From Candidatus Omnitrophota bacterium (GTDB lineage: Bacteria > Omnitrophota > Gorgyraeia > Aquiviventales > Aquiviventaceae): DNA of 32,023 nt. The stretch covers positions 1 through 32,023 of the forward strand of contig JAHFGV010000026.1 of the NCBI GenBank assembly GCA_023247255.1, written 5' to 3'. A program made the translations under genes and the position numbers. A model generated the notes under the pieces. That model had not been told where the DNA came from. It saw nothing but the letters and a program-made list of their open reading frames with translations, and searched no databases. Of this stretch, positions 3,276 to 30,110 are shown one piece after another; within the stretch, counting starts at the first letter, position 1, and every line of letters starts with the position of its first letter.

Positions 3276-3320
3276 CGCCAATCTTTACTTAGAGTCTGAG
3301 GTTTTGCAAAATGCAGCGCG

Positions 3321-3480
3321 GTTAGTGGCAGTGCTCACGTCTGTTTCATGAGTCATGTGTTATGTATCATGAGTCATGGAAAGCAAAAGGCGTACTTTGG
3401 CCGTGCTTGAGATGCCTGTTTATTTTCTGCTTTTTTCATGACTCATGACACATAAAACATGACACAGACGTGAGTACTGG
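3321..3480. repeat. Palindromic repeat family 1, copy 2
   Basis: Same family as 525-700. The arms are CATGAGTCATGTGTTATG on the left and its near complement on the right, and the outer ends CTCACGTCTGT and ACAGACGTGAG are also inverted. The inner core (reverse complement of AAATAAACAGGCATCTCAAG) is inverted relative to copy 1. It fills most of the gap between the methyltransferase and the DoxX gene. Confidence 0.75.
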
Positions 3481-6784: not shown

Positions 6785-7312
6785 TCACTGCGCTAGTGCG
6801 TTCAGCGTCTTGCCGTGCCGACGATTCACCCTCTCAAGCGCAGCATGAAATTTTGTGGAGCGCTTCTCATCCCGCACCGGCGAAATGATGAGATTACGAC
6901 CATCCGTGGCGAGTTCGAGTGGCGTCTTCATCGTGATATGTAGCAGCTCAAGCACTGGCTTGTCGATCACAAGGGCTGCGCTGTTACCATGTTGCGTGAG
7001 GTGTTTTACCATATTCCATCCTCCATGTGAGACGTTATCATATGGATGTCCCCCCAGCTTATTGATCAACTCTTCCTTCTGCTTTCTCGTTAGCTTCTTT
7101 AGCTCTCGCTCGGCCTCTAAAGCCCTTTTATAATTCTTGTACTCCCGCGCATACACTAGCTCCACCGGAGCCCGTCCTCTCAGATACTTTGCTCCATTGC
7201 CGGCGTTATGCGATTTGAGTCTCTTCTCAAGATTATTGGTCGCTCCGGCGTAGTACGTTCTATCCGTACCCTCAACGATATAAGCGTAATAGCTCGCACG
7301 GCACTTTCTCAT
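6785..7312 (-). CDS. Fusion ORF: N-terminal GIY-YIG nuclease domain plus C-terminal AbrB/MazE-type antitoxin
   Basis: Residues 1-88 form a GIY-YIG domain of the small stand-alone type: AYIVEGTDRTYYAGATNN, then LEKRLKSHNAG and RGRAPVELVYAREY. Residues 101-175 are a swapped-hairpin AbrB/SpoVT antitoxin (MVKHLTQHGNSAALVIDKPV, then NLIISPVRDEKRS). The joint (YDNVSHGGWN) encodes a strong internal GGAGGA box followed by the ATG of Met101. The antitoxin, 75 residues alone, therefore has its own start at 7012 and probably existed before the GIY-YIG ORF ran into it by losing its stop. The antitoxin sits directly upstream of the doc-like toxin. The fused protein, an internal-start antitoxin, or both may be made. 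The ORF start at 7312 has AGGA 5 bases upstream. Confidence 0.82.
   Translation of the reverse strand: MRKCRASYYAYIVEGTDRTYYAGATNNLEKRLKSHNAGNGAKYLRGRAPVELVYAREYKNYKRALEAERELKKLTRKQKEELINKLGGHPYDNVSHGGWNMVKHLTQHGNSAALVIDKPVLELLHITMKTPLELATDGRNLIISPVRDEKRSTKFHAALERVNRRHGKTLNALAQ
7019..7024 (-). promoter_or_regulatory. Internal Shine-Dalgarno for the antitoxin part
   Basis: GGAGGA on the minus strand lies 6 bases before the ATG at 7012. It is an ideal ribosome binding site in the middle of the GIY-YIG/antitoxin ORF and marks the ancestral antitoxin start. Confidence 0.7.
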
Positions 7313-7356
7313 CTCATCCTGCCTGTCCCTCAGGTACCGTCACCGTGGTATGAGAC
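7313..7356 (-). repeat. Conserved leader upstream of the GIY-YIG gene
   Basis: On the plus strand this reads CCTGTCCCTCAGGTACCGTC then ACCGTGGTA. The same leader (CCTGTCCCTC, then a G/T-rich CACCGCGGTA) recurs near 9380-9410 and 11510-11536, and more weakly near 483. The similarity stops after CGGTA in each case, which suggests the outer boundary of the mobile unit. It abuts the 3' end of recQ. Confidence 0.6.
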
Positions 7357-7358
7357 CG

Positions 7359-9308
7359 TCAGGGAACGGCTTGTTCGAGGTGCCGTTTGATCACCGAAAG
7401 AAACATTGGGCTGAACTCCCGGAGCTTCTTGTCCCCGACGCCGCTGATGAGTGAGAACGCCTTCTCATCGCGCGGCACATCCCTCGCCATTTGGCGCAGC
7501 GACACGTCGGAAAATATGATATAGGCGGGTACGTTACGCTCGTCGGCCAATTGTTTTCGAAGGCGTCTCAGCCGCTCGAACAGCGCCTCGTCGCAAAGAA
7601 TCTGTCCGTTGCGTCTTGTCTTGGCCGATGGCGAAACGGAGAATGCCCCCGCAGATTTCAACCCCTGCTGCACCCTTTCTTGCTTTCTTGCGAAAGCAAG
7701 AAAGCCTGGGGACGAAACCGCGGGGGGAAAAATCTGCGGGGGCGCGATTCGCTGACTCAACGTGACAGGCTTGCGCTCGTTCAAAACCGCACGGCCCTGC
7801 GCCGTCAGCTCCAAGATGCTGAATTTGTCCGCCGCCTGCTTCACCAATCCGAGCCTCAGGAGCTCTCGTCCAATCGCCGCCCACTCCTGCCGCGTATGCT
7901 CCTTTCCGATGCCATACGTCGACAGCCCTTCATGCCTCCAACGCCGGACCTTCTGCGTTTGCGCACCCGTCAAGACTTCCACCACGTGGTTCAGGCCGAC
8001 TCCGAAGCCGCTTTTCTCGCGGATCCGATAGATGCAGGAAAGAAACTTCTGCGCGGCAAGGGTGCCGTCGAAGGTCTGTCTCGGTGAAAGGCAATTGTCG
8101 CAGGCGGCGCAATTTTTCGTCAGGAACTCTTCACCGAAATAGCCCAGCAGCTCCACTCGTCGACATCGGGAGCTTTCGGCATACTGCACGACTTCTTGCA
8201 GCTGCCGGTGCGCAAGCTCTCGTTCTTTGGGGTCCGACTTCTCCTCGATGAACTGGACGTATTTGACCGTATCGCCCGCCCCGAACAGAAGCACGCACTC
8301 CGCTGGAAGCCCGTCGCGTCCCGCGCGGCCCGTTTCCTGGTAATAGCCTTCGATGTTCTTCGGCAGGTCATAATGGATGACGAACCGCACGTTGGGCTTG
8401 TTGATGCCCATGCCGAAGGCGATCGTCGCTGTGATCACACGGATCTCATCGCGCAAGAACAGCTCCTGATTTCGATTTCGCTCCTCTGCCCCGAGGCCCG
8501 CGTGATACGGCTTGCTGGGAATACCATCCGCGTTGAGCCGCTCGGCGAGGCGTTCCGCGGTCTTTCGGCTCTGGCAGTACACGATGCCGCTTTCGGCCTG
8601 ACGCGCGTTTGCGTAACTGCGCAGTTGCTCATACGCCTGATGCTTGGCCAACACGCGATACGTGAGATTCGGCCGGTTGAAGCCCGCGACATACACGCGC
8701 GGATTTTTCAAGCGAAGCTGGCGGAGAATGTCTTCCCGGACGCGCTCGGTCGCCGTAGCCGTGAGCGCCAAAATTGGCGTATCGGGAAGCACCTCTCGCA
8801 ATTCCGAAAGGCGTCGGTATTCCGGACGAAAGTCGTGTCCCCACTCGCTGATGCAGTGGGCCTCGTCCACGGCGATCAGCGACACGTTCCACCGCCGCAC
8901 ATCCCGCAGAAATCCGGGAAGCATGAGCCGCTCGGGCGCAGCATAGAGCAGGCGATAGTCACCCCTCTTGAGCCTTTCCCGACGTCTTTCGAATTCATCG
9001 GCATCTAGAGACGAATTCAAGAACGTCGCCGGAATTCCCATGACCTGCATGGCATCAACCTGGTCCTTCATCAGCGCGATAAGAGGCGACACAACGACAG
9101 TCAAACCCGCCCGGATAAGCGCGGGCAGTTGGTAACACAGAGATTTCCCCCCACCCGTCGGCAGCAGCGCGAAGACGTCCCGCCCCGCGAGCGAATCCTC
9201 CATGATTTCTCGCTGCAATGGCCGGAACGAGTCGAAGCCAAAGGATCGCTTGAGAAGATCCTCTAAATCGACGGTGTCCGTAGGCAACGCAACAACACGC
9301 TCAAGCAT
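7359..9308 (-). CDS. recQ: ATP-dependent DNA helicase RecQ
   Basis: The 649-residue product has all core helicase motifs: Walker A LLPTGGGKSLCYQLPAL near residue 50, DEAH in AVDEAHCISEWGHDFRPEY, motif III LALTATATERV, and motif VI YYQETGRAGRDGLP. The RQC zinc-binding region follows (CRRVELLGYFGE; NCAACDNC), then a winged helix and a C-terminal HRDC domain (ALFERLRRLRKQLADE to KRHLEQAVP). RecQ unwinds 3'-tailed DNA in recombination and fork repair. The RQC-HRDC linker carries about 33 extra residues (about 522-555, including SSPGFLAFARKQERVQQG) encoded by a 99-bp palindromic element. The gene should still be functional because the linker is tolerant. GIY-YIG family sequences lie on both sides of the gene. 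Confidence 0.97.
   Translation of the reverse strand: MLERVVALPTDTVDLEDLLKRSFGFDSFRPLQREIMEDSLAGRDVFALLPTGGGKSLCYQLPALIRAGLTVVVSPLIALMKDQVDAMQVMGIPATFLNSSLDADEFERRRERLKRGDYRLLYAAPERLMLPGFLRDVRRWNVSLIAVDEAHCISEWGHDFRPEYRRLSELREVLPDTPILALTATATERVREDILRQLRLKNPRVYVAGFNRPNLTYRVLAKHQAYEQLRSYANARQAESGIVYCQSRKTAERLAERLNADGIPSKPYHAGLGAEERNRNQELFLRDEIRVITATIAFGMGINKPNVRFVIHYDLPKNIEGYYQETGRAGRDGLPAECVLLFGAGDTVKYVQFIEEKSDPKERELAHRQLQEVVQYAESSRCRRVELLGYFGEEFLTKNCAACDNCLSPRQTFDGTLAAQKFLSCIYRIREKSGFGVGLNHVVEVLTGAQTQKVRRWRHEGLSTYGIGKEHTRQEWAAIGRELLRLGLVKQAADKFSILELTAQGRAVLNERKPVTLSQRIAPPQIFPPAVSSPGFLAFARKQERVQQGLKSAGAFSVSPSAKTRRNGQILCDEALFERLRRLRKQLADERNVPAYIIFSDVSLRQMARDVPRDEKAFSLISGVGDKKLREFSPMFLSVIKRHLEQAVP
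7645..7743. repeat. Palindromic element inserted in frame inside recQ
   Basis: The ends are perfect 14-bp inverted repeats (GCCCCCGCAGATTT at 7645-7658; AAATCTGCGGGGGC at 7730-7743). In the centre is a perfect 10-bp stem (GCTTTCTTGC / GCAAGAAAGC, 7682-7705) with a GAAA loop. Its length is 99 bp, a multiple of three, and the recQ frame passes through without a stop. It falls in the linker between RQC and HRDC. Confidence 0.85.
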
Positions 9309-9310
9309 GT

Positions 9311-9410
9311 TCTACCTTAGTACGTTCTATCCCTAACGTATAAACGCAATAGCTCCTAGGCGCTTCCTCATCTCACCCATGCCTGTCCCTCAGTGCCCAT
9401 CACCGCGGTA
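9311..9410 (-). repeat. Decayed 5' fragment of the GIY-YIG gene family upstream of recQ
   Basis: On the minus strand, the leader GAGGGACAGGCATGGGTGAG is followed by a degenerate start MRKRLGAIAFIR and then stops; downstream DNA still matches the intact gene (GATAGAACGTACTA). Compare MRKCRASYYAYI at 7312. The rest of the gap to 9457 shows no gene. Confidence 0.7.
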
Positions 9411-9457
9411 CAAGAGTCACGAGAGCGTCGGGTATCTGCTTGTGCCGACTTATGCGC

Positions 9458-11454: not shown

Positions 11455-11539
11455 GTCCTCAACGATATAAACGTAATAACCCGCATGGCGCTTCCTCATC
11501 TCACCCATCCCTGTCCCTCGGTGCCCGGCATCGCGGTAG
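11455..11539 (-). repeat. Decayed 5' fragment of the GIY-YIG gene family
   Basis: The minus strand carries the leader (CGAGGGACAGGGATGGGTGA) and the start MRKRHAGYYVYIVED, clearly the same as the intact MRKCRASYYAYIVEG at 7312, but the frame then diverges into unrelated sequence. It is the best preserved of the three fragments. It joins directly onto a truncated hsdR start. Confidence 0.75.
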
Positions 11540-11605
11540 CTGGTACCTTTCATTCAGCCACTGGAGCGTCGCTTCTTCAACGGTGGACTCGGTCACAGCT
11601 TTCAT
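11534..11605 (-). pseudogene. hsdR: Relic of type I restriction enzyme subunit R (N-terminal fragment)
   Basis: On the minus strand an ATG at 11605 opens MKAVTESTVEEATLQWLNER, which matches the very characteristic HsdR N terminus (TESxVEEAxLxWL). After about 23 residues the similarity ends where the GIY-YIG leader repeat begins. No other hsd gene is in the window. Confidence 0.6.
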
Positions 11606-14487: not shown

Positions 14488-15396
14488 TCACAAGGCGTTC
14501 AGCGTATCTTCAGGTACCCAACCAGAGAGGCCGTCGGCGCGCTTGAGCTGGACCCAACCGAATTCATGCCCGAGGACCTGGACGATCGTACCTTCGGGCA
14601 GTTCGAAGTGGGTAGTGCCCGTTGTCTGCGGAGAGAACTTTACATCGATCTGCTCACGCACGACGACTGCCTTTGGCACGCCATCTAGCACTAGCGTTTT
14701 CACGACCAACGCGGTGAAGAAAACAAGAGCAGTGGTCCCTGAGAGCCATACGACAGGCTGCGCAACGCGCCGAGTCTGCGGCTTCCAGGTAGCCAGGCTC
14801 CACATGAGCACCAGCAGCCACCCCGACAGGCCAGACCATCCGGCAAGCTCGGACGTTGCGAATCGTTGCTGGAGCGTCAGCCATCGAATCAGACGAGAGG
14901 GTATCACCGAAGCATTGACCCCGGCTTGTAAGAGCGCCTGGACGTATTCCAAATTTGCCTGGACGTCGGCGTCACGGGGTAGAAATGCTTTTGCCTTCAG
15001 ATAGGCCCAGAGGGCTTCACTTTTTTTCCCGCTTTTCAAGAGCGCGTTGCCGAGGTTGTAGTAGAGTACGCCGTTCTGCCACCCCGCTGCCAGGAGATCT
15101 CGGTAGCCTGACGCAGCCTCAGAGAACTTGCCGTTTCGGTAGTGCTCATTGGCCTGTTGGAAAGTTGACGTTGCACTCACCGAAGCGTTGACGCGAGCCA
15201 CACCGCCACCCCACAGGGTCATGCTGGCGACGATGCCAACGGTTAAGCGGATGGTGTAAAGCCGTACGGGATGAGCCTGTGGCACCGATAAGGCTGCCCC
15301 GATGGGACCGACATCCCGCCCACCCATACGGCTGCTAACTGCCGTGTCGCCCAAAATCCTCGGCCGTGGCGCAATGGCGGGGTTGGATCGTCTCAT
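14488..15396 (-). CDS. batE: BatE-like TPR/SH3 membrane protein
   Basis: The 302-residue product contains TPR repeats (ANEHYRNGKFSEAASGYRDL; LYYNLGNALLKSGKKSEALW), a two-segment membrane region (LAGWSGLSGWLLVLMWSLA; TTALVFFTALVVKTLVL), and a C-terminal bacterial SH3 domain ending GWVQLKRADGLSGWVPEDTL. This is the BatE layout. The ATG at 15396 overlaps the batD stop by 4 bases, so I prefer it to the track start at 15504. Residues about 5-47 are encoded by a 130-bp interspersed repeat inserted in frame ahead of the signal peptide (VRLYTIRLTVGIVASMTLWG). This gives an unusually long, Pro/Arg-rich leader that may impair export unless an internal start is used. Confidence 0.88.
   Translation of the reverse strand: MRRSNPAIAPRPRILGDTAVSSRMGGRDVGPIGAALSVPQAHPVRLYTIRLTVGIVASMTLWGGGVARVNASVSATSTFQQANEHYRNGKFSEAASGYRDLLAAGWQNGVLYYNLGNALLKSGKKSEALWAYLKAKAFLPRDADVQANLEYVQALLQAGVNASVIPSRLIRWLTLQQRFATSELAGWSGLSGWLLVLMWSLATWKPQTRRVAQPVVWLSGTTALVFFTALVVKTLVLDGVPKAVVVREQIDVKFSPQTTGTTHFELPEGTIVQVLGHEFGWVQLKRADGLSGWVPEDTLNAL
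15256..15385. repeat. 130-bp interspersed element, copy C (inside batE)
   Basis: The plus strand starts GTAAAGCCGTACGGG and ends GGCGGGGTTG, aligning end to end with 24421-24550 and 25411-25540 at the same length. Shared blocks include CATCCCGCCCACCC and CGGCCGTGGC. I count roughly 60% identity to copy A, highest at the ends. The batE frame crosses it without a stop. Confidence 0.8.
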
Positions 15397-23911: not shown

Positions 23912-25291
23912 TCAGAATTCAATACGCACCAGAACTCCGACTCCGGTTTCTCCACGATCCGCTCGAACATAGGGACTCAAGGTCCACGCATGGACCGCTT
24001 CTGGAGGCTCAAAGGCAGCAGCAGGAACTGTCGCCTGCGAGATGAGCGAACGCACCGCCAGGCCAATCAGCGCGGTGCTGGCAAGCATCGGGAGATGGTC
24101 GTGAAACTCACTGCCACTGGCCTCCTCAAAATTGGAAGTTAGGTAAATCCCCGCAAATACCAGTGCCCCTATAAGCGTTCCTGGAAACTCTCGTCTCACC
24201 AAAAGGTCCATCCGTGCGAGCATCCCAGGCTTGTATTTGCCAGTTTGATTTGCCTCCACCCGGTTCAGCCCGGCAGGGGGCAACGTGAGTTCATACAGGG
24301 ACGCAGGTGGGACACCCGAGCGTTGAAGAGCTTGTTCCAAGGTTATGGTAATCACGGGAGCCGACGGTGAAATTGACGACGCAATCTGAGGAACGGTTTC
24401 CTCCGTTAAAAAGCGACCCTGTGGAGCCCCACGGGACAAACCCATGGCACCGGTAAGTCCGCCGCGATGGGGGCGATATCCCACCCACCCGCTCGCTGAA
24501 GCAAACCATCTAGGCCCACGGTCAGGGGCCGTGGCCCGATGGCGGGGTCGCGAATCAATCCACCCCCGCCATGGCTCAAGGACGATGACGTGGAGTAAAA
24601 GCGCAGCAGAAACAATGCCAGCAATCGTTTGATATTCTTTGCGCAACTCATGAGTAGAAAAAGAAGCACGCAGACCGACTGAGGGCCACCTCAGCCGCGG
24701 CACCAGCCGAGGGACCTGGCGGCAAAATTCCTCATAGCCGGCACCAAACCGCTCTGTCAGAAAACGCTCTTCGGCCCGGATGATGCGGCTGTAGACAATG
24801 ACGAAATAGAGCGTGCAGGCGACTACGACCACCCAGGAATCTGTGAAACAGGCCAGGCCGAGGCAGAGCAGAAAGTTGCCTGCGTAAATGGGATTGCGAA
24901 TCATTGCGTAGGGCCCTTCTTGGACGAGTCGCTTGGCATTGGTAGAGGCTGATCGGGTTGCCGCCCCAACAATTCCTACGGCCCAAATACGCAGGGACTC
25001 ACCCAGCAGGATAAGCAACACCCCCGCTACCTCAGATACACCTCGCCATTGCGTCCATGAAGATGACTCGTTTGAAAGCAACCGGGTTGCAATTCCGATG
25101 AGTAAAAACGGAATGGGCAGATGATCGCGATGCCCAAACACCCAGGAATTCACACGGCCAGCACCCAGGCGGCGGCTTGTCATATACAAGCCGATTGCGA
25201 ATACGGCAAGTGCGGCAAAAAGAATCCATGGCCACGGCTGCATCATAATGGCGATATTATATCGCACCTCTGATCTCATCGCATCGTTCAT
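23912..25291 (-). CDS. Isoprenylcysteine-methyltransferase-like membrane protein with extended C terminus
   Basis: Residues about 1-215 form a multi-pass membrane methyltransferase of the ICMT/NnrU/PEMT type, with the signature LVQEGPYAMIRNPIYAGNFL, then a long helix and RAEERFLTERFGAGYEEFCR. The segment to about residue 247 ends with VLEPWRGWID. Residues about 247-290 (RGPRWFASASGWVGYRPHRG) come from the 130-bp repeat. The last ~170 residues contain a membrane pair (EFPGTLIGALVFAGIYLTS; MLASTALIGLAVRSLI) of unknown family. The repeat may have fused the methyltransferase to this tail. I choose the ATG at 25291 (MNDAMRSEVRYN) with GAGGT upstream; the track's extra N terminus lies over the divergent gene. 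Confidence 0.8.
   Translation of the reverse strand: MNDAMRSEVRYNIAIMMQPWPWILFAALAVFAIGLYMTSRRLGAGRVNSWVFGHRDHLPIPFLLIGIATRLLSNESSSWTQWRGVSEVAGVLLILLGESLRIWAVGIVGAATRSASTNAKRLVQEGPYAMIRNPIYAGNFLLCLGLACFTDSWVVVVACTLYFVIVYSRIIRAEERFLTERFGAGYEEFCRQVPRLVPRLRWPSVGLRASFSTHELRKEYQTIAGIVSAALLLHVIVLEPWRGWIDSRPRHRATAPDRGPRWFASASGWVGYRPHRGGLTGAMGLSRGAPQGRFLTEETVPQIASSISPSAPVITITLEQALQRSGVPPASLYELTLPPAGLNRVEANQTGKYKPGMLARMDLLVRREFPGTLIGALVFAGIYLTSNFEEASGSEFHDHLPMLASTALIGLAVRSLISQATVPAAAFEPPEAVHAWTLSPYVRADRGETGVGVLVRIEF
24421..24550. repeat. 130-bp interspersed element, copy A
   Basis: Plus strand GTGGAGCCCCACGGG ... GGCGGGGTCG. An ungapped end-to-end alignment with copy B (25411-25540) gives 99 of 130 identical positions by my count. 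It contains a CCACGG/CCGTGG hairpin near the right end. It lies inside the methyltransferase-like gene and is read on the minus strand in a different frame from copy C. Confidence 0.88.
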
Positions 25292-25362: not shown

Positions 25363-28257
25363 ATGAAGGAACACATCCACCGCGCAAGACAAAATGAGTG
25401 GTGGGAATTTGTGGAGCCCCACAAGATAAGCCAGTGGCATCGGCAACTCCGCCCCGCGTGGGGCGACATCCCGCCCACCCAATCATTGAAGCAAACCAAC
25501 TGGGCCCTATGCCTTCGGCCGAGGCCCGATGGCTGGGTTGAAACAAATCCTGATGGGCCGGCTTCAGGAACGTTCCGCGCCTGCCAAAGGAATCTTGGCC
25601 GGCTCTACTTTCCCATCGCCAATGAAGCCGGAATGCTTTCATGGACTTCGCCACAGCTCCATGGCTCTGCGGCCATCAGCCACCATGAACACCTTTCAGT
25701 GCCATTAACTGCTGAGGATCTGCCACACACCCTGGTCCATCGCGATTTCTGGATCGTGGAAGAATCTCATCGGCCCTTTTCCGTGGCCGGCCTTTCACCC
25801 GAAGAACTCAGCCCGCGTCATCATCCATCCTCAGAAACAGGCATTGAAGCAGGCATCGGATGGTTTACCCTGAACCGACGCGGACCGAACCGCCGATTTC
25901 TAGCCACAGCCACCCTCTGGTGTCCTGCCGATTTCCATGAACCCGTGGAAATCCTGCGGGTGGTCGTAACCAACACATCTTCGCATCCAATTCGATTCAT
26001 TCCCTACGCCGCCATCCCCTTGTTTTGCCGCTCAGCGGACAACGTACGCGATCATCGACACGTAACCGCGCTGTTGCACCGGGTCGAACTTTTGAAATAC
26101 GGACTCCACATCCAACCCGCCATGTCCTTTGACGAACGCGGACACAAACCCAACACTACCCAGTACACCATCCTTGCACTTGGCCCCCAAGCAACTCCCC
26201 CAACGGATATCTGGGCGCTGGAGGAGGATTTTCTGGGCGACAGCGGCACGTTCGCTGCACCCAAAGCAGTTTGGAATCGACAACGTGCTGCGATTTACTC
26301 CTCGGAAAAACTCTCCGGCCGAGAAGCCATCGGGGGATTTCGTTTTGCTCCGCGCACGTTGGCTCCTAAAGATCAGGCCACCTACTGCCTGATCTCTGGA
26401 ATTTCTCACGATCCCCAACGCCACCGTCACTGGCTGCGATGGGCACGTCAGCTTCATACTATCCATCGGTCGCTTGAGAAGACGAAAAGTCATTGGCTCA
26501 ACCACACGCGACGCATCACGTTCTTTACATCGGACCGACCGCTCGATCACTGGCTGGCTTGGGTAAATGCCCAACCTATTTTCCGTCGGCTGTACGGCAA
26601 TTCTTACCTTCCCCAGTTCGACTATGGACGCGGCGGACGGGGCTGGCGCGACCTCTGGCAGGATTGCTTGGCCCTGTTACTGTCCGACCCTAAAGAGGCG
26701 CGGCCTCTGCTTCTGTATAACACAGCAGGGATCCGGATCGATGGCTCAAACGCAACCATCATTGAACGGGATGGCACTTTCAGTGCTGATCGCAATAACA
26801 TCCCCCGGACATGGATGGACCACGGCATCTGGCCGGTGCATACAATCTTGCTCTATCTGGACCAGACCGTCGACGTTGAGCTCCTTCTGGAAAATCAGAC
26901 TTATTTCCGCGATCCTCAAATCTTGCGTTGTCGTCAACTCGATCCTCGCTGGAGCCCAGCCTACGGACTTAGGCTTCGCACCCGTCGGGGTCGCATCTAT
27001 CAGGGCTCGGTCCTTGAACATCTGCTCGTTCAGACACTGACGGCTTTCTTCAACGTTGGCGAGCATAACGTTTGTCGTCTGGAAGGCGCGGATTGGAACG
27101 ATGGACTGGACATGGCCTCTCACCGAGGAGAGTCGGTAGCCTTCAGCGCCTTTTACGCATGGAACCTGAAACGGCTGGCAGAGTTAATGTCATGGCTCTC
27201 CACACGTGGGATAAAGACGATCGAAGTCTTTGAGGAACTCATCCTTTTGTTGGATCGACTCCCCGCTCAAGAGCCCATTCATTATCGAAGCGCGCAAGCC
27301 AAGCGTAAGCGTTTAAACCAATATCTGGATAGAGTCTCGCACGACATTTCAGGTGAGCGCACCCACGTTCGGCTGCAAGTGCTTGCGGCTGATCTGATGC
27401 AAAAATGCGAAGATTTATCCGAACGCATCCGGAAACAAGAATGGGTGAGAGCTCAGGGAGAGCAATTTTTCAACGGCTACTACGATGATCGAGGCCGACG
27501 TGTGGAAGGCAATCATTCGAAAGGAATCCGCCTGACTCTGACCGGACAAGTCTTTCCGGTCATGACGGGAATGGCTACTGATGTCCAACTCAAGCGTGTC
27601 GTTCGCGCAGTCAATAGATGGCTGCGCGATCCTAAGACCGGTGGAATTCGCCTCAATACGGACTTCAAGGAACCGCAACCGCACTTAGGACGGGCGTTCT
27701 GTTTTGCCTACGGCGACAAAGAAAACGGGGCCGTCTTCTCGCACATGGCCGTCATGTACGCCTATGCCCTCTACGTACGACGACAAGCCCACGAAGGCCG
27801 AAAGGTCTGGAGTAACCTCTATCGAATGGCAACGAATCAGGCAATAGCCAAGATCTTCCCTTGCCTGCCTGAGTATTTCAATCGCAACGGCCGGGGAATG
27901 TACTGTTACCTAACCGGATCGGCTTCATGGCTGGTGTATCTGCTGTTGACTCAAGTCTATGGAATCCGCGGGGAGCGTGGGGATTTGGTCATCGATCCGC
28001 AGTTGACTCGGGAGGACTTTGGAGATCATCACGCTATCGCCGTCGAAACTTCATTCGCCGAACGCCGCCTGCGGATTCATATCGCAAACCCCAAACGTCT
28101 TCGGCCGGGCGAATACGCAGTCCTCGACGTGCGCACCGGAGACAGGTCAGTTCCCTTCACGACACGCTCAGAAGGTGGAGTACGAATCGTGCGTCGAGTC
28201 CTTGAACAACTTCCCGCCACCCATTGCCACCTCCTGTCCATCAGCCTCGGACGATAG
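25363..28257 (+). CDS. GH94-like glycoside phosphorylase/hydrolase (cellobiose-phosphorylase-like)
   Basis: In the 964-residue product residues about 65-350 form the N-terminal beta-sandwich (GRLYFPIANEAGMLSWTSPQ), then a linker and an (alpha/alpha)6 catalytic domain: GRGWRDLWQDCLALLLSDP, IPRTWMDHGIWPVHT, and EGADWNDGLDMASHRGES, whose Asp near residue 580 matches the GH94 general acid. NGRGMYCYLTGSASWLVYLL closes the active site. GH94 enzymes phosphorolyse beta-glucosides such as cellobiose, chitobiose or cyclic glucans; the specificity here is not readable. The ATG has GAGGG upstream. Residues about 17-60 (ISQWHRQLRPAWGDIPPTQS) are encoded by the 130-bp element, inserted between NEWWEFV and the family's usual GTFR start. 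It is divergent from the methyltransferase-like gene. Confidence 0.88.
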   Translation: MKEHIHRARQNEWWEFVEPHKISQWHRQLRPAWGDIPPTQSLKQTNWALCLRPRPDGWVETNPDGPASGTFRACQRNLGRLYFPIANEAGMLSWTSPQLHGSAAISHHEHLSVPLTAEDLPHTLVHRDFWIVEESHRPFSVAGLSPEELSPRHHPSSETGIEAGIGWFTLNRRGPNRRFLATATLWCPADFHEPVEILRVVVTNTSSHPIRFIPYAAIPLFCRSADNVRDHRHVTALLHRVELLKYGLHIQPAMSFDERGHKPNTTQYTILALGPQATPPTDIWALEEDFLGDSGTFAAPKAVWNRQRAAIYSSEKLSGREAIGGFRFAPRTLAPKDQATYCLISGISHDPQRHRHWLRWARQLHTIHRSLEKTKSHWLNHTRRITFFTSDRPLDHWLAWVNAQPIFRRLYGNSYLPQFDYGRGGRGWRDLWQDCLALLLSDPKEARPLLLYNTAGIRIDGSNATIIERDGTFSADRNNIPRTWMDHGIWPVHTILLYLDQTVDVELLLENQTYFRDPQILRCRQLDPRWSPAYGLRLRTRRGRIYQGSVLEHLLVQTLTAFFNVGEHNVCRLEGADWNDGLDMASHRGESVAFSAFYAWNLKRLAELMSWLSTRGIKTIEVFEELILLLDRLPAQEPIHYRSAQAKRKRLNQYLDRVSHDISGERTHVRLQVLAADLMQKCEDLSERIRKQEWVRAQGEQFFNGYYDDRGRRVEGNHSKGIRLTLTGQVFPVMTGMATDVQLKRVVRAVNRWLRDPKTGGIRLNTDFKEPQPHLGRAFCFAYGDKENGAVFSHMAVMYAYALYVRRQAHEGRKVWSNLYRMATNQAIAKIFPCLPEYFNRNGRGMYCYLTGSASWLVYLLLTQVYGIRGERGDLVIDPQLTREDFGDHHAIAVETSFAERRLRIHIANPKRLRPGEYAVLDVRTGDRSVPFTTRSEGGVRIVRRVLEQLPATHCHLLSISLGR
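25411..25540. repeat. 130-bp interspersed element, copy B (inside the GH94-like gene)
   Basis: Plus strand GTGGAGCCCCACAAG ... GGCTGGGTTG, exactly 130 bases like the other two copies. Here the plus strand is the coding strand, opposite to copies A and C, and the frame is open. Confidence 0.88.
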
Positions 28258-29100: not shown

Positions 29101-29196
29101 GGGAAACCTTTGCGCCCTTATACCATGTCGACTGCCCCGGTGTTCTGTCGCGGGCTTGGCCGGAGCTACACCCTCAGCGTTCCAAGCCACTGGATC

Positions 29197-29302
29197 CGGA
29201 TTCTATCTGCTGATCCAACTCCTTGGGCAGAGACGACAGGCTCCGATGGCCGTCAGCGAGATCCATTATTTAGGGGAGCCTTCTTCTTCACGAACTCCAC
29301 TC
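29197..29302. repeat. Direct repeat flanking VapBC, left copy
   Basis: Nearly identical to 30005-30110 (shared GGCTCCGATGGCCGTCAGCG and AGATCCAT-ATTTAGGGGA). On the minus strand it still encodes a copy of the 3' end of the zinc-peptidase gene, RVEFVKKKAPLNNGSR plus stop. No gene lies between 29101 and 29386. Confidence 0.85.
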
Positions 29303-30004: not shown

Positions 30005-30110
30005 CCAGACTCCGTCGGCTGATCCGACTCCTTGGGCAGAGGCGGCAGGCTCCGATGGCCGTCAGCGAGATCCATCATTTAGGGGAACCCTCTTCTTCAC
30101 GAACTCAACC
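30005..30110. repeat. Direct repeat flanking VapBC, right copy (3' end of the peptidase gene)
   Basis: Covers the last ~16 codons of the zinc-peptidase gene and about 55 bases beyond. It matches 29197-29302 at close to 90% by eye. Confidence 0.85.

Follow-up and report, generated by a model that had tools for sequence, protein, structure and literature searches.

Small palindromes in coding sequences have been known since 2000 and, to our knowledge, there is no accepted account of how they move. Hairpins of the REP type are moved by Y1 enzymes. The Rickettsia palindromic elements (RPE), of 105–146 bp, lie in frame in conserved protein genes, where they are translated and tolerated, and are also described from tmRNA and RNase P RNA (PMC2229807). 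A palindrome in recQ of a Candidatus Omnitrophota bacterium, found in the 32,023 nucleotide stretch of contig JAHFGV010000026.1 that was analysed here (the window), resembles RPE in that it occupies a conserved protein gene in frame and is missing from relatives. It differs from RPE, as these are described, in having a tip module of 34–46 nt, placed at hairpin tips within unrelated palindromes, in another phylum, with two covarying pairing registers and no preferred reading frame. Unlike RPE, the 99 bp unit is not dispersed whole in its host genome, where it has one copy and the core alone recurs.

The GC clusters of yeast mitochondria, such as GC42, and the fungal double-hairpin elements are described as tiny mobile palindromes that merge and shuffle modules and have no known enzyme (PMC4478555), and the repetitive hairpin-forming elements of sponges occur in rRNA genes (PMC2800124). 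The Omnitrophota module is like these in its small palindromic form, the merging and shuffling of modules, the sites in rRNA genes and the lack of a known enzyme. Those elements are, however, organellar, and GC clusters have putative target-site duplications, whereas none is clear for the Omnitrophota module. No account of tip replacement in another palindrome was found in the portions of the GC cluster and sponge literature covered. REP palindromes serve as insertion sites for some insertion sequences (PMC1525189; REP and BIME are also described in PMC2817692). The module shares bulged palindromic units, occurrence in intergenic repeats and insertion into palindromes with REP and BIME, yet it has at most nine exact or near-exact copies per genome against more than 100 for REP/RAYT, no GTAG-type tag beside the listed copies, locations inside rRNA, introns and genes, and no tie to Y1 genes. 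Template switching at hairpins, or quasipalindrome correction, makes and perfects hairpins through compensatory multi-base changes (PMC8794818), but the known cases copy local sequence and here one sequence recurs across genera. A conserved hairpin tip replacing the tips of unrelated hairpins was not found described in the literature covered, coverage of which is incomplete, and its novelty is unproven.

An in-frame insertion in recQ

The 99 bp palindrome is a genuine in-frame insertion in recQ (Table 1). It encodes residues 522–555 of a 649 residue protein and, by Pfam boundaries, lies between the RQC (409–522) and HRDC (573–640) domains. The first-pass annotation had described perfect 14 bp inverted ends enclosing a perfect 10 bp hairpin, 33 codons in this linker, and a peptide added without breaking the gene. 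Each of these points holds, and the inner hairpin is better than was claimed, with a 13 bp perfect stem overlapping that of 10 bp. Folded as single-stranded DNA, positions 7635–7753 are 6.2 s.d. below dinucleotide shuffles, with none of 200 shuffles as low.

The four closest RecQ proteins, three of them encoded in genomes of the same family and the fourth in a member of the same class, are 73–82% alike over the aligned part and do not have the 33 residues. These residues are likewise missing from RecQ of more distant, named-genome relatives, and in both sets the linker is shorter. The same linker residues encoded by non-palindromic DNA, which would have spoken against an insertion, were not seen, as the relatives lack them altogether. 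Removal of the 33 residues would leave a linker that falls short of those in the closest relatives by approximately 5–8 residues, and the exact boundaries of the insert are therefore uncertain. This linker is highly variable among relatives, and the genome is the sole member of its genus. The flanks of the insert contain no clear repeat, so that the search for target duplications that had been suggested gave no clear example; replacement of a tip would leave none. Close RecQ homologues are patchy in the family: 3 of the 26 other genomes have one, and any helicases in the rest are distant. Among named relatives of this RecQ the best are from Verrucomicrobia, which hints at horizontal transfer.

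Table 1. Features of the recQ locus, in window coordinates.
Feature	Position	Strand	Remarks
recQ host gene, intact	7359–9308	-	Domains DEAD, Helicase_C, Zn-binding, RQC, HRDC
Complete in-frame insert, 99 bp (33 codons)	7645–7743	-	No counterpart in RecQ of L006–L009 and named relatives; fold z = -6.2
Outer arm GCCCCCGCAGATTT	7645–7658		Perfect inverted repeat with 7730–7743
Left intermediate segment, C-rich stem (CCCC)	7659–7674		Sequence and fold
Expanded hairpin tip, 13 bp perfect stem	7675–7704	-	7675–7687 pairs with 7692–7704; loop TTGC on the plus strand, GCAA on the recQ strand
Alternative register of expanded tip, 10 bp perfect stem	7682–7705		Inverted-repeat pair, 7682–7691 with 7696–7705; loop GAAA
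Conserved core TTTCTTGCGAAAGCAAGAAA, containing the class-wide 18-mer TTCTTGCGAAAGCAAGAA	7684–7703		Covariance model R1 match at 7679–7704, 36.8 bits
Right intermediate segment, G-rich stem (GGGG)	7705–7729		Sequence and fold
Outer arm AAATCTGCGGGGGC	7730–7743		Perfect inverted repeat with 7645–7658

Several other repeats are present in the window. Three copies, 66–77% alike, of another palindromic family run in frame through predicted genes (15255–15383, 24420–24548 and 25410–25538), with GWAGCRPTRGGV as an example of the encoded peptides. The first of the two families named in the first-pass annotation is probably this one. A 40 bp near-perfect inverted repeat, TTCCTGAGTTCAAGTTTCTAGCGCAACACC..., is found on two contigs of the genome (28412–28497, and 2848–2925 of L002) and is probably another mobile palindrome. 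Clusters of inverted and direct repeats of the ATGACTCATGACACAT type flank four genes (546–698 and 3317–3480), and dispersed repeats (CCTCAACGATATAAGCGTAATA..., TGCCTGTCCCTCAGG...) are located near GIY-YIG-like and other small genes (7270–7355, 9359–9415 and 11457–11543). A 105 bp direct repeat, 89% identical, flanks the region of a toxin-like PIN gene (29196–29300 and 30005–30109).

A nested palindrome and its hairpin tip

The recQ insert is a nested composite of an outer palindrome and a separate hairpin tip. The outer arms belong to a palindrome, GCCCCCGC...GCGGGGGC (f1), that has other interiors in related genomes; the arm GCCCCCGC-AGATTTG is also present in G019 (C31) and G021 (C128) around different interiors, for example GCCCCCGCAGATTTGGTGCCAAAGGCACCAAATCTAGCCGCGGGGGC in G019. 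The core tip in turn is found in other outer palindromes. The kind of module shuffling known from GC clusters and double-hairpin elements, one tip in different outer palindromes and one outer palindrome with different interiors, is thus also seen here. Treatment of the palindrome as a single element is not supported, since its two parts each occur separately elsewhere. When the genome is searched with the 99 bp, as had been proposed, the whole unit is found once; the core has one further copy, inside a pseudopilin-type gene (C64:24803–24847), and elsewhere the full-length query matches the core only. Nor are the two palindrome families of the window independent and unrelated as first described, since L002, L183 and L184 each have the core within or next to a copy of the first family. 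In the latter two, both in G021, the module sits at the CCA/TGG tip of the copy.

The inner part of the insert is an expanded copy of TGCT-TTCTTGC-GAAA-GCAAGAA, which with its arms reads CCCC-TGCT-TTCTTGC-GAAA-GCAAGAA-GGGG. Nearly all copies have a C-run before the core, a G-run after it and the 4 nt TGCT bulge on one side. The paired runs covary, with 97 cells altered on both sides against 47.7 expected. The expanded form, longer by 8 nt, is common to the window, the 23S rRNA of G200 (L115) and G021 (L116), and is what slippage by one repeat would give. Across the class, 27 genomes together have 50 separate copies of the exact 18-mer TTCTTGCGAAAGCAAGAA. Allowing one mismatch, the 20-mer core was found in 27 of 384 genomes, with none for a reversed-pattern control, and a covariance model, the E-values of which are rough, matches the module in 49 of the 384 genomes of the phylum. 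The exact core was absent from all 50 genomes of other groups, these having been reached through RecQ relatives. A search of the module at Rfam gathering scores returned matches to host RNAs, and none to the module itself. Four viral contigs carry the core, one of them within a terminator-like hairpin, in its loop. On the viral contig of L244 (6507–6528) the module caps a terminator hairpin, GGCCCCG...CGGGGCCTTTTTC.

The copies cap other, site-specific palindromes in 16S and 23S rRNA, group I introns, a cobalamin riboswitch, a phage terminator and intergenic repeats. In Rfam alignments copies fall exactly on the tip of SSU helix 6 (L128), and likewise on those of two LSU hairpins (L115 and L120), group I intron hairpins (L125, L143 and L155) and a cobalamin riboswitch hairpin (L178). 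Pairing between the flanks outside the module scores 3.58, whereas mixed left and right flanks give 0.96 ± 0.20 (0 of 200 as high), and the flanks differ at each site. Selection alone could retain only those insertions into RNA genes that are at tips, which would weaken a reading of the module as specific to hairpin tips. However, 16 intergenic copies outside RNA genes and coding sequences, one per outer family, keep this pairing (3.69 against 0.85 ± 0.33, 0 of 500), so that the location at tips is not wholly explained by survival in RNA genes. Outer pairing is weak in roughly half the intergenic copies.

At every site compared the old tip has been replaced. Helix 6 of 16S rRNA is ATCCC-GCAA-GGGAT in relatives and ACCCCCCC-TGCTTTCTTGCGAAAGCAAGAA-GGGGGGGT in G234, and at LSU hairpin 45 the copy in G019 takes the place of a native stem that is kept by relatives including the window's own genome. 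Near tRNA genes, the palindrome CCATGTACC...GGTACATGG (CCATGTACCCGA...GAGTGGTACATGG) has a 24 nt interior in G300 and the 36 nt module in G291 between identical arms, while the corresponding place in G227 has no palindrome whatever. The position of this second palindrome layer is precisely the CCA end of tRNA genes (G291:C38, L172; G300:C217, L395). As replacement is seen between genera or species rather than strains, insertion followed by trimming is a possible alternative to replacement in one step.

Pairing registers and reading frames

Two pairings are open to the core TGCTTTCTTGCGAAAGCAAGAA, TGCTTTC/GAAAGCA and TTCTTGC/GCAAGAA, and derived subfamilies maintain both registers through compensatory changes, some of them three-way. 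Base 5 changes together with bases 14 and 22 in TGCTGTCTTGCGACAGCAAGAC, as does base 3 with bases 11 and 16 in TGTTTTCTTGTGAAAACAAGAA, and in each form both registers are kept. Further derived forms that preserve both are TGCATTC..GAATGCA and TTCATGC..GCATGAA. In the covariation model, which leaves out L151 and degenerate single copies, counts are above those of shuffles for both registers. Since the search model encoded only one register, the second is an independent test. The pairs are broken in single degenerate copies.

Most copies of the core are intergenic or lie in RNA genes. None of its six frames contains a stop codon, and each is used in some open reading frame. The core is read as LAFAR in recQ and a TolC-like gene (L183), LAKAR in the pseudopilin, FLRKQE in an M20 peptidase (L181) and at the C-terminus of cytidylate kinase (L119), SCESK in a radical SAM gene (L182), FLLSQE in dnaX (L121) and SCFRK in an open frame without a recognised domain (L180). 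The insert in L181 breaks into the peptidase domain near the metal-binding HMDVVPV and GRGALDMK motifs. As all six frames occur and no peptide is conserved, the peptide is incidental, and tolerance rather than protein function explains the frames; the recQ peptide presumably has no selected function. Five of the six frames of the 99 bp insert are open, against a mean of 1.9 in letter shuffles, although the two strands of a palindrome are not independent. For the cap, 10% of composition shuffles are open in all six frames. Given this figure and the dependence between strands, ordinary purifying selection on where copies survive suffices. The selection or mechanism favouring open insertions that was first suggested is not needed.

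Proposed movement of the module

The recQ insert is probably a composite, non-autonomous palindromic mobile element, the tip of which is a hairpin module that moves from tip to tip by replacement. The outer arms are those of a palindrome of this bacterial family and the tip is an expanded copy of a phylum-wide module. The composite would have landed in the flexible RQC-HRDC linker, and would be tolerated for its length of 99 bp, its open recQ frame and its position between domains. The module may go from the tip of one hairpin to that of another and displace the old tip. Such movement would most likely act on extruded hairpins, in DNA that is single-stranded or forms a cruciform, through copying or strand transfer. 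The C-run and G-run arms may act as a microhomology guide. The slippable core may aid strand exchange or may result from hairpin-templated correction (PMC8794818). Both registers would be needed for spread. Y1 transposase was considered as the mover and is not supported, its genes being present in 20 of 27 genomes with the core and in 22 of 27 without it in matched genome sets.

The same replacement of tips could come about without a dedicated enzyme, if a stalled polymerase switched template and copied a distant hairpin tip through the C-run and G-run microhomology, with hairpin-templated correction keeping the registers identical. The lack of a clear target duplication, the C:G arms at almost all sites, the 8 nt expansion and the absence of Y1 enrichment all agree with template switching, which is a documented creator and perfecter of hairpins (PMC8794818). 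It is normally local, however, and to place one exact 18-mer in dozens of genera it would have to act over long range and choose the same donor repeatedly, while the derived multi-copy subfamilies suggest a favoured unit. This explanation is rather unlikely. It is improbable that the module is a MITE of the conventional sort or a REP-type element that depends on a trans-acting transposase targeting palindrome loops (Y1/REP-associated, IS110 or IS3 type), with the original tip lost later. The bulged stem is like that of REP hairpins, and IS1397, ISKpn1 and IS621 are described as inserting specifically into REP palindromes (PMC1525189). Against this, Y1, the only transposase family compared, is not enriched, there is neither a clear target duplication nor a conserved terminus past the C:G arms, and the old tip is gone at every compared site.

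A coding palindrome of the Rickettsia type, selfish or even selected, with a peptide that matters to RecQ or to proteins generally, would fit the in-frame position of the insert in a conserved gene, which RPE share (PMC2229807). The use of all six frames, the absence of a conserved peptide and the predominance of copies outside protein genes make it very improbable. Every source is a draft or metagenome assembly, and a hairpin chimaera from library preparation or assembly has to be considered; copies lie mid-contig and in frame in intact genes, the covarying arms differ at each site and the subfamilies match between genomes, so that an artefact is scarcely credible. The best reading is a selfish hairpin module that spreads by hairpin-directed copying, with a putative mechanism and enzyme. 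More tentatively, it may represent a phylum-wide class of mobile DNA with a bistable hairpin tip as its unit, moving only from tip to tip by replacement and requiring both registers, that would thus colonise rRNA, riboswitches, introns and terminators, and protein genes by way of composite palindromes.

One conserved core can be traced through dozens of genera, with sites for comparison and a clear rule of location at the tip of another hairpin, and hairpin-directed spread is thereby made testable. The two covarying registers are a structural clue to the mechanism. The hairpins of rRNA, riboswitches and introns, and the linkers of proteins, can change by the swapping of a module.
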